In this document: positions 3,054 through 38,578 of the stretch, piece by piece
Layout of the letters: every line of letters begins with the position of its first letter
Position numbering within the stretch: position 1 is the first letter of the stretch
Virus record (IMG/VR): IMGVR_UViG_3300019776_000194
Coordinates: 20,395-84,394 of that record
Length of the DNA: 64,000 nt
Reading direction: 5' to 3' (one strand)
Source: a virus
Made by a program: the position numbers and the translations under genes
The notes under the pieces: model-generated
Seen by the model: the letters and a program-made list of their open reading frames with translations, nothing else
Told to the model about the DNA's origin: nothing
The model's database searches: none

Positions 3054-3260
3054 ATGTGGACATTGATATTTGTTTATAGCTTGTATGGAAGTTATATTCC
3101 GCACACAACAGGCAATAAAGCAGAGATATCGCACCCTGTCACTGTCACCAAAGACTTCAAGACAAAGCAAGGCTGTGAGTTTGTGCAGAAGTGGCTTGAA
3201 CAGAATACTGTAAATAATCGTAAACGTATTGATGTATCTATTTGCATTAAAGGAGAATAA
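3054..3260 (+). CDS. Small hypothetical protein (68 aa), possible signal-anchored
   Basis: First gene after the promoter, with AAGGAGAATAAT before its ATG. The N-terminus (MWTLIFVYSLYGSYI) is hydrophobic and could be a short signal or anchor; the rest is basic and hydrophilic with two cysteines. No family recognised. Confidence 0.6.
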   Translation: MWTLIFVYSLYGSYIPHTTGNKAEISHPVTVTKDFKTKQGCEFVQKWLEQNTVNNRKRIDVSICIKGE

Positions 3261-12919: not shown

Positions 12920-12948
12920 ATTATATCATGTTTATAGTGAAATGTCAA
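12920..12948 (-). promoter_or_regulatory. Sigma70-type promoter for the distal fibre/lysis genes
   Basis: Reading leftward, TTGACA (12943-12948), 17 bases, TATAAT (12920-12925), 25 bases before the start at 12895. It gives the fibre and lysis genes an independent boost. Confidence 0.85.
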
Positions 12949-36067: not shown

Positions 36068-37739
36068 TTATATAGTTGGTATTGGGGATGGTCTAGTAAA
36101 GGACGGTAAACTGAAGGTCGGAAGTGTGTGGGTTCGCATCAACGCCTTACATGCCGTACCAGTTGCGTCCCAATAATCGTCCTTCTGCTGTCGCTTTCCA
36201 TCTACAAAATCTTCTAATTCTGATAACAGTGGCTCAGTATCCCAACTTCCATCATCTAGAATTTTGACAAAACCTGCCTCAGCTAATGTCAAGAATGGCT
36301 GCATTCTGTGTAGTTTACTTTTTGTACCGCCAGACTTATCAATTCTTGCATCGACACCAGCTTCAATTAATGTCTTAACAAAAAACATAGTGGCTGCTTT
36401 AGCTGCTACACCTACGTCTTCAGGTAAGTACACTGCAGGTGAATGTCCTATAGCCTTATCTCTACGGTCTGTTTCTGCAATGTGTTCCATTACACCGTTA
36501 ATTAGAGACCTGTATCGTTCTCCGTGATGGATAATGTAATAGCCCGATTTTGTCTTAGACATCATTACAGATGCAGTCCAGTCAGGGTCTGGATAAGCTT
36601 CAGAAGGTAAACTACCTGCAATATCCATACCACGAACTGTTGCTACAATGTCATCAGGAAGTTCTGTAATTACTTCGCACCAATCTCTTTTAAAAAATCC
36701 TCTTGACTCTTCTTTCGCATGCCACGACCCTAAGTAGAGACGTTCACGTTCAGTGCGCTTCAAGTTCTCCAAACGAGCTACGTAGTTTGGATTCAAGATT
36801 TTCATGATGGGGTTATCTTTAACCGTAGCAGAAATATAAGTATATGTTTGAGCTTGGATTTTATCTCCATACTTCTCAATCAACTCTTCTTTTGTATCTG
36901 CTGTTACTGTCACACCGCCATAAGTAGCGTAGTATCTCTCTTTACCAGACAATTCAGGAATGGGAATACCTGTTTCCATATCTAAATACGGCTGTACGAA
37001 TTGGTAAAGGTAGGAGGCTCTTGATGGGTTAGCTGTACAGATAAGTTGGTGAGGAGCTTGTGCTTTAGAGCGAATACGAGACTCTAGGTATTTGATTTGA
37101 GTTTCACTATGCCATTGAGCTTCATCGAAACAAACTAGTGAGAATTGCCCACCGTCAAAGTTGTTAATATCCCTATCTGCTTGACACACTTTAAACTGCA
37201 CTTGTGCTCCACTTGGGAATGTGGCTGTCATCTGTGGATGTGTCTTAAACTTTGCTCCGTAATCTTTCCACATATCTTGTGCTTCCATGAACAAACCACC
37301 AGCTTGTGAAAGCTGTGTGGATGTCTCACGAATGAATACACCTCTAAAATATGGGTCGTGAATGTATTTTAGAATTAACATTAACGCTTGGTGCGATTTG
37401 CCAGAACCTGCCATCTGACGTATTCAAAAGGGGTCGTTACACCCTTCCCGCTTTATTCAAGCTGCTGAAAGTCGCCTTTCAGATTAGACTATATCTTCTG
37501 ACTCCCCTGTTTCCACTCACTTGAGTGTACGGCTTTCGCCTAGTCGTTGAACCTTCCTGCAAACAGGCTTGGCTGCGGATTGTCTCTGTGAGAGTTTCCC
37601 GCAATTGAAGGGATGTTTTTAACGTGGAGGCACAGGATTATCTACCACCACCGAATATCACGAAATTAGACTTGCAATTCAGAAACTTCCTGTGAGCTTC
37701 TGAAGCAGGTGCTAATACTTTACGTTCTTTTTTGCTCAT
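36068..37739 (-). CDS. terL: Large terminase subunit (480 aa), split by a group I intron
   Basis: Packaging ATPase-nuclease. Exon 1 is 37739-37644 (32 codons, MSKKERKVLAP...FVIFGGG); exon 2 is 37414-36068 (448 codons). Splicing joins GGG to MAGSGKSHQ, restoring the Walker A motif GGGMAGSGKS across the junction. Walker B is VCFDEA; nuclease aspartates are in VRGMDIAGS, LPEDVGVAA and KDDYWDATG. The 480-residue total is normal for TerL. The first exon start ATG 37739 follows AAAGGAGTAAA. Without splicing only a 33-residue peptide would be made from exon 1 (stop TAA in the intron). So the two frames are one gene, not a pseudogene. Confidence 0.9.
37415..37643 (-). ncRNA. Group I self-splicing intron (229 nt, no ORF) in the terL P-loop
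   Basis: On the terL strand the conserved core elements occur in order: P AATTGCGGGA (37606-37597), Q AATCCGCAGCC (37581-37571), R GTTCAACGACTA (37552-37541) and S AAGATATAGTC (37497-37487). The 5' exon ends in U, with the U-G pair: exon GUGGUGGU pairs with intron GCCUCCAC in 7 of 8 positions, giving P1. The last intron base is G (omega G). The element resembles the IA-type introns of T4 genes. It lacks an endonuclease, so homing, if any, would depend on an enzyme encoded elsewhere. Confidence 0.92.
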
Positions 37740-37810: not shown

Positions 37811-37837
37811 CTCACCTCAAAACAAAATTGCAAACAG

Positions 37838-37909
37838 AACGGCTCTACAACGTCACAGGAGAAAGCACGAAGGAGGAGAACGTGCCAAGGAGAATGACGG
37901 AGAGCCGTT
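37838..37909 (-). ncRNA. Symmetric three-tier stem-loop with repeated UUCUCC loops
   Basis: Seen in the DNA (coordinates on +): a 9-bp stem AACGGCTCT/AGAGCCGTT (37838-37846, 37901-37909); a 5-bp stem CGTCA/TGACG (37851-37855, 37895-37899); a 9-by-9 internal loop (37856-37864 CAGGAGAAA, 37886-37894 CAAGGAGAA); a 5-bp stem GCACG/CGTGC (37865-37869, 37881-37885); and an 11-base apical loop AAGGAGGAGAA. All three loops carry GGAGAA or GGAGGAGAA. As transcribed with the late genes (minus strand) they read UUCUCC, complementary to the early Shine-Dalgarno AAGGAGAA. On the plus strand they would be GGA loops like CsrA sponges. Only the late (minus) direction has a promoter and operon context. Function is inferred. 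Confidence 0.55.
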
Positions 37910-37978
37910 GTATTTACAATCTAAAGAGGTTTATAAGGAACTCCTCAATCCTACACGATGGCTGCAACCTACGAATAT

Positions 37979-38051
37979 TGGATGCGGTCGCCTGACTTGA
38001 ACAGGACTGAAAGCTTATGAGACTTTCGTGCAACCTTTACACTACCCCGCA
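37979..38051 (-). tRNA. tRNA-Met-like (anticodon CAU), CCA encoded, divergent arms
   Basis: Reading leftward: acceptor TGCGGGG, D arm GTGT-AAAGGTT-GCAC, anticodon arm AAAGT-CTCATAA-GCTTT (CAU at positions 34-36), a three-base variable loop, T arm around TTCAAGT, acceptor 3' strand GACCGCA, then T and CCA. The D and anticodon stems are clean. The acceptor has two mismatches at positions 6 and 7, and the T stem has only four good pairs plus one mismatch, so it may be weakened or degenerating. Lies between terS and terL in the late transcript. Confidence 0.62.
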
Positions 38052-38142: not shown

Positions 38143-38517
38143 TTAATCAACTTCAGCGATATTCTCAAAATCTAAAAGTGGTTGACTTTCATCATCTTCA
38201 TCATTATCATCTACAATAATACCGCCATTACGTTGAATACTTAAAAGCAACTCATGATGTTTTGCTGCAAACTCTTTATTCCTAGCTTTCTCAGCAGACT
38301 CAACTTTAATAGACTCCATGTGCATAGTCATAAGAAACTTTGCTGCTTCCATCCTATCTTTCCTACTTGCTGTAGGGTCATCTCTTACAGATACCAAGTA
38401 TGCCATAGATGGTTTATTTTCCTTGTTTAGCAATCGCTTCTGTATAGTAATCGAGTTCTTCTTGCTCTGAACACCTGTCCTTACTATCTCTCCTACTGAA
38501 TTATCTACATCACTCAT
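38143..38517 (-). CDS. Putative small terminase subunit (124 aa)
   Basis: Placed immediately upstream of terL with its own promoter, the usual terS position. It is basic and helical (SVGEIVRTGVQSKKNSITIQKRLLNKENKPSMAYLVSVRDD...RKDRMEAAKFLM), with an acidic C-terminus. The central segment resembles TerS DNA-binding helices, but I cannot name the family. ATG 38517 follows AGGAGATGT. A gap of 403 bases with a tRNA and structured RNA separates it from terL. Confidence 0.6.
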   Translation of the reverse strand: MSDVDNSVGEIVRTGVQSKKNSITIQKRLLNKENKPSMAYLVSVRDDPTASRKDRMEAAKFLMTMHMESIKVESAEKARNKEFAAKHHELLLSIQRNGGIIVDDNDEDDESQPLLDFENIAEVD

Positions 38518-38549: not shown

Positions 38550-38578
38550 ATTATACATACAAGATAGTCGTTTGTCAA
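38550..38578 (-). promoter_or_regulatory. Sigma70-type promoter of terS and the late block
   Basis: Leftward TTGACA (38573-38578), 17-base spacer, TATAAT (38550-38555), 33 bases before the terS start. This is the first promoter of the leftward late block. Confidence 0.88.

Follow-up and report, generated by a model that had tools for sequence, protein, structure and literature searches.

What is the looped RNA encoded between the terminase genes of this phage, from which strand is it read, and why would all of its loops be complementary to Shine-Dalgarno (SD) sequences? The window, a stretch of 64,000 nucleotides, is part of an 84,394-base IMG/VR virus record from an uncultured tailed phage, whose large terminase (TerL) is about 40% identical or less to those of cultured myoviruses (Nankokuvirus, Pakpunavirus, Felixounavirus). 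No close TerL relative was found in bacterial genome contigs, and these give hence no clue to the host.

Organization of the locus

The RNA, here called element A, is read from the minus strand and stands between terL and a putative small-terminase gene (terS), with the following neighbours, listed in the direction of transcription:

38550-38578, minus strand: sigma-70 promoter, perfect match (TTGACA-17-TATAAT), preceding the terS-tRNA-A-D-terL unit
38143-38517, minus strand: putative small terminase gene (terS), named from its position only
37983-38050, minus strand: degenerate tRNA-Met-like gene with a CAT anticodon-like triplet (Rfam RF00005, 35.6 bits; missed by ARAGORN)
37929-37955, minus strand: module C, AGGATTGAGGAGTTCCTTATAAACCTC, 27 conserved nucleotides that precede element A
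37825-37922, minus strand: element A, a long hairpin RNA (folding; covariance-model matches in eight other phage loci)
37756-37818, minus strand: module D, a GUGAGAGG leader and two hairpins, with AUG in the first loop; its stems vary among relatives with pairing kept
37640-37739, minus strand: terL exon 1 (3' boundary approximate), with SD AAAGGAGU, continuing the TerL N-terminus of relatives
37465-37666, minus strand: group I intron in terL (RF00028, 74.3 bits; bounds of the Rfam model)
36068-37414, minus strand: terL exon 2 (PHROG 979, E 9e-137)

The putative terS had no PHROG match, and its homologs hold their place upstream of element A in the relatives. The terL intron falls close to the Walker A codons. 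At about this position L002, L006/L008, L009, and L012 likewise have an intron-like insertion, L003 has an apparently different one, and L001, L004, L005, and L010 have none.

The tRNA array of the window is reduced to the single degenerate gene at 37983-38050, a remnant, a Met-like relative of which is found at L005:1598-1665. Locus L005 carries, on the same strand, tRNA-Cys, Trp, Met-like, Tyr, Thr, and Gly, and then element A directly after the CCA end of the Gly gene. Element A also begins directly after a tRNA CCA end in L088 and L001 (the latter tRNA was read by eye and is not called by ARAGORN). Element A is thus a unit of the phage tRNA array, on the late-operon strand. The first-pass annotation had placed it on a late transcript, a statement to be taken with some reserve, since the perfect sigma-70 promoter upstream of terS (38578-38550, minus strand) makes early transcription possible and suggests that element A would not be made only late. 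Perfect 12/12 sigma-70 promoters precede late units at 12948, 36049, and 38578 of the window, all on the minus strand. Early transcription units have similar consensus sigma-70 promoters, so promoter class does not explain early and late timing.

Fold and loops of element A

Element A was predicted to fold into a single long hairpin, consisting of stem P0 (12 bp), a C-C mismatch, P1 (9 bp), P2 (5 bp), two facing CUCC internal loops, and a tip formed by P3 (6 bp) and an apical pyrimidine loop. The part described at first, positions 37838 to 37909, is the inner portion of this longer hairpin, and its three stems (9, 5, and 5-6 bp) and three loops, GGAGAA on the plus strand and UUCUCC on the minus strand, were found as claimed. 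Folding of both strands gave -41.0 kcal/mol (shuffle z -9.96) for the minus strand and -28.2 kcal/mol (z -4.98) for the plus strand, in agreement with a structured minus-strand RNA. All three loops are unpaired by prediction:

37887-37894, minus strand: loop 1, UUCUCCUU, exact complement of AAGGAGAA, with an unpaired probability of about 0.9
37870-37880, minus strand: loop 2 (apical), UUCUCCUCCUU, which includes the 16S anti-SD core CCUCCUU
37856-37863, minus strand: loop 3, UUCUCCUG

The loops consist of pyrimidines only, the 3' edge of the element is U-rich, and this is the sole site in the window where three TTCTCC motifs fall within 40 nt on one strand. No Rfam 15 family matched element A, even at E<5, the only matches nearby being the group I intron and the tRNA; modules C and D of the window had no Rfam identity either.

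Conservation and coding strand

An initial scan for the loop pattern gave 75 matches, mostly chance or coding repeats, from which only those with long stems were retained. With a covariance model trained on three copies, nine distinct copies were then identified, that of the window and those of eight other phage loci, all with E values of 5e-12 or better. They are located upstream of terL in the related phages, and each genome whose whole record was searched has a single one. The remotest copy is that of L005, with a TerL 64% identical. As MAFFT misplaced P3 of L088, pairs were counted on a model-fitted alignment (A6), in which 99.3% of the cells were paired and 17 of the 32 pairs showed changes on both sides among the nine copies; this alignment leans towards structure, and shuffled and slid controls were applied. 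The covariation score was reached in none of 500 shuffles, and sliding the partner by 1-3 columns lowered pairing to 36-49%, with 0-3 compensatory pairs. The stems vary between copies while the loops stay UUCUCCU-like: the apical loop contains CUCC in 9/9 copies, and UCUCCU is found in loop 1 of 8/9 copies (UUCAUUU in L005) and in loop 3 of 8/9 copies (UUUUCCU in L089), so CUCC occupies all three loops in 7/9 copies and at least two in each. The structure proposed at first is therefore borne out by covariation as well as by conserved UUCUCC/CUCC loops.

The same alignment indicates the strand. G-U pairs on the minus strand account for 34 of its 286 cells and would be A-C mismatches on the plus strand, which, together with the strand of the tRNAs, establishes the minus strand as that of element A. 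The alternative raised earlier, a plus-strand sponge for CsrA/RsmA with GGA loops, draws on the fact that the plus-strand loops read AGGAG. It is contradicted by these 34 pairs, by the poorer fold of the plus strand, by model scores of 27-32 bits on that strand versus 61-129 on the minus, and by the tRNAs and terL, whose strand corresponds to the minus in every relative examined; we regard it as hardly credible.

A split in Shine-Dalgarno sequences between gene classes

The loops of element A are complementary to GGAG-type SD sequences, and the first-pass annotation had proposed that these are in excess in early genes, while late genes use AAGGAAA. Genes were predicted by a simple script that scores hexamers and starts, in which the SD contribution is capped and AGGA and GGAG starts score alike, and the same-strand gene run downstream of terL was taken as the late class. 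In the window genome, G000, none of the 30 late genes had GGAGAA in the SD window, compared with 34% of the 98 other genes (p = 6e-5). For GGAG, the values were 17% and 59% (p = 5e-5). AGGA was equal in both classes (63% late, 61% other); the late genes are thus not without SDs, and theirs are of the AAGGAAA type, as had been stated. Among the early sites given as examples, those at 3054, 4763, 5088, 5413, 5912, 41316, 46443, 59088, and 62554 were confirmed, and the gene calls include no start for 47472. The difference in sequence is reflected in the predicted duplexes, with a median loop-to-SD energy in G000 of -4.9 for late and -9.7 for other genes; the gap is narrower for 16S-to-SD duplexes (-5.6 and -8.3).

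This split recurs in all four whole-genome relatives that carry element A, where the frequencies of GGAG in late and other genes were.12/.61 (G001),.12/.66 (G005),.14/.66 (G007), and.10/.59 (G006); across the genomes with element A, GGAGAA had a frequency of 0 in late genes and.22-.34 in the others. Gene length was considered as its cause and rejected, as genes of more than 200 aa alone still split in the A-bearing genomes (GGAG in 15/60 late versus 70/101 other genes, p 5e-8). Relatives with a single-CU-loop hairpin showed a weaker split, significant in G002, G010, G011, and G012 and not significant in G004 and G013. No significant split was detected in G017, a relative in which no hairpin was found, or in T4, PAK_P3, HJ01, AM24, M5.1, Felix O1, rV5, and Barba22A. 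A split was also present in G014, G018, and G015, three relatives assigned to no hairpin class; the terL call of G015 is uncertain. The element-bearing genomes form one clade, so the split may be inherited and is not independent evidence that the RNA causes it.

Neighbouring conserved modules

Module D is a separate conserved RNA, usually placed after element A and before terL, and also found at L002:1155, L088:4749, L012:1651, L003:2601, L005:2099, L010:3683, L009:2624, L004:2798, and L006:199, with stems that differ yet remain paired across distant relatives. Its leader is SD-like (GUGAGAGG/GUGGAGAGG), the AUG (or UUG) in the loop of its first hairpin opens a very short reading frame or none, and the loop of the second hairpin reads RGCARGGUWUAGYGUGGYGU. 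Module C occurs also at L012:1451, at L062:4255, and in L001 and L002, and L088/L089 have a longer variant in which stem pairing is kept (GAGG/CCUC to GAGAAG/CUUCUC). A late promoter in TTCCTTATAAAC was considered and rejected: the motif is unique to this locus and its near-matches are at chance level, which makes module C more likely an RNA.

Other insertions vary among the relatives. A further hairpin after element A, module B (CAACAGTGTTTCGTCCCATATCTGGT..ATCGTGGAACACTGTTG), was seen at L012:1590-1645, at L062:4380-4440, and in L001, L002, and L089, and is absent from the window. In L003, L005, L062/L091, and L088, homing-endonuclease-like ORFs are inserted between module D and terL, carrying a conserved structured leader, GGCATTNGAGAGGAACCC.

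Diverged and analogous hairpins

A broader TerL search added about 40 further loci, among which covariance model R2 gave no significant match (best E 0.08). In L227, L231, L235, L239, and L245, a hairpin with a CCCCUCCUC apical loop lies upstream of terL among tRNAs, with an outer stem, a 1x1 mismatch, and an inner stem in the same order; L251 has a hairpin of that order with the apical loop CCUCUCCUC. These diverged relatives keep CCUCC or CUCC at the apex while the rest is altered. CU-loop hairpins also stand at the same place in L004, L009, and L010 (with a z of only -1.9 in L009). It is plausible that these hairpins are homologous to the three-loop form of element A.

In addition, 123 Pakpunavirus records (HJ01, PaP1, K8, PAK_P4, and others) contain a hairpin with three CU-rich loops just upstream of tRNA-Thr and near terL. 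In Pseudomonas phage HJ01 it is unannotated:

L170:2636-2700: Pakpunavirus hairpin, between a tRNA-like RNA resembling PAK_P3 sRNA2 and tRNA-Thr

This hairpin is an analogue of element A by architecture only. It stops a few bases before the tRNA, as does the diverged hairpin of L231. The leader of PAK_P30161 in PAK_P3 (KC862299.1, about 84,651-84,700) has a hairpin with a UUCCUCCUCCUU loop, immediately before the AAGGAGU SD of this gene.

Proposed function and competing explanations

The best explanation for these results, taken as one joint reading and held tentatively, with somewhat less than even confidence, is that element A is an anti-SD small RNA that would occlude GGAG sites and spare late genes. 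The processing that excises the tRNAs would probably also free element A, and the stem would merely present the loops, with UUCUCCUU, UUCUCCUCCUU, and UUCUCCUG as the presumed seeds for GGAG-type SDs, above all AAGGAGAA. Element A would then most likely act in trans on the SDs of GGAG(AA) mRNAs, those of most early phage genes and probably of many host genes, where pairing may block binding of the 30S subunit. Late sites of the AAGGAAA type would keep 5-6 pairs with 16S rRNA and lose the pairing of GGAG with the loops, and may so escape. With consensus sigma-70 promoters in front of early and late genes alike, such post-transcriptional control would be useful to the phage. The processing, abundance, and timing of element A, its action in trans, and the repression itself are the parts that we infer. 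Several observations count against this explanation: the loops match the generic SD too, so that discrimination would depend on a few pairs; loop 1 of L005 and loop 3 of L089 lack CUCC; terL and the putative terS retain GGAG; and HJ01 has a three-CU-loop hairpin yet shows no SD split.

Among the competing explanations, we consider it unlikely that element A is a tRNA-array RNA with a structural or protein-binding role and no SD pairing, be it a processing signal, a terminator-like structure, an S1-type pyrimidine-tract site, or a packaging RNA. Its position in the array, the long stable stem, the U-rich 3' edge, the pyrimidine-only loops, and the adjoining terminase genes would all suit such a role, and T4 RNA C and D, ROOL, and GOLLD are examples with no known SD role; it predicts, however, neither the exact complementarity to AAGGAGAA nor the SD split, nor why a CCUCC apical loop is kept in diverged relatives while the rest changes. 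Slightly less probable still is a role in cis, in the leader of terL, where the CUCC loops would pair with the GGAGAGG of module D or with the terL SD, AAAGGAGU, and control terminase translation or leader folding, the SD split then having another cause. Elements A and D do usually occur together upstream of terL, also in the diverged L004, L009, and L010; GGAGAGG or GGAGAA of module D complements the loops (7 nt in the window and L010); and GGAG, which late genes avoid, is kept by terL in most relatives. Yet homing endonuclease genes part element A from terL in L003, L005, L062, and L088, the terL of L012 has been replaced (32% identity) beside a conserved element A, three loops exceed the needs of a single cis target, and the match between A and D is weak in L002, their pairing being inconsistent across relatives.

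We judge it quite improbable that the split stems from the removal of early mRNAs by an SD-specific factor, such as a RegB-like endoribonuclease acting as in T4, with element A having another role. Many early SDs here read GGAGAAT/C, comparable to the site of T4 RegB, which cleaves GG*AGRAYARAA in early SDs (PMC3014915). The likeness between the two cases is one of logical effect, namely GGAG in early SDs being targeted and early translation ended; RegB, unlike element A, is a protein nuclease, and a search for PF10715 found no homolog in seven genomes, with the T4 positive control recovered. Moreover, T4 itself is without an SD split, no more than 7 early sites of G000, and 2-6 of the relatives, agree with the extended RegB consensus, and the conservation of the loops would be left unexplained, although a nuclease unrelated to RegB could still act in this way.

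Relation to known RNAs and significance

The anti-SD reading has a bacterial counterpart in NfeR1, whose three redundant anti-SD motifs lie in unpaired regions between variable stems and block translation in reporter assays (PMC10746234). The alpha-r14/NfeR1 and cuckoo sRNAs of alpha-proteobacteria resemble element A in having three unpaired anti-SD motifs, ultraconserved, and variable stems, and occlusion of multiple SD targets was shown there (PMC10746234). Several unpaired SD-complementary loops, the mark of a multi-loop anti-SD RNA, are found in element A as well. The bacterial RNAs, however, consist of three separate hairpins with CCUCCUCCC and are encoded in the bacterial chromosome, whereas element A belongs to a phage tRNA array and is a single long hairpin whose loops read UUCUCCU. 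Membership in the alpha-r14/cuckoo family was rejected on account of the single nested hairpin, of UUCUCCU in place of CCUCCUCCC, and of the missing Rfam match. On paper, element A would act as the NfeR1/cuckoo RNAs do, while standing outside that family.

Among phage RNAs, the PAK_P3 tRNA cluster encodes an abundant sRNA that rises 12-fold late (PMC4933390). This RNA, PAK_P3 sRNA2, shares with element A the location in a tRNA cluster upstream of terL, with a homologous terminase, but is tRNA-like with a T-arm. T4 RNA C and RNA D (species 1 and 2), small stable RNAs that end a phage tRNA operon, have no assigned function. Neither these nor sRNA2 have CUCC loops, and they were rejected as homologs. 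ROOL and GOLLD are also structured phage or prophage RNAs near tRNA islands, but they span hundreds of nucleotides and form ornate oligomers, and element A matched no Rfam family. In T4, according to a review, no trans-acting regulatory RNA had been functionally characterised (PMC3014915).

The loops of element A are exact complements of early and not of virion ribosome-binding sites, which suggests an RNA that may help to switch from early to late synthesis. It is possible, if doubtful on balance, that an anti-SD RNA from the tRNA array divides the genome into GGAG early genes and AAGGAAA late genes and would shut off the former, and perhaps host mRNAs, late SDs having evolved to escape. Post-transcriptional switching in lytic phages is known chiefly from T4 proteins, and the small stable RNAs that phage tRNA arrays encode have gone for decades without, to our knowledge, a function. 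Here, sequence by itself yields a precise hypothesis for one of them: the loops and the SD code are specified, and a genome-wide split accompanies the RNA. The analogous hairpins in more than 100 genomes of Pakpunavirus, whose hosts are laboratory strains of Pseudomonas, offer a cultured entry point.
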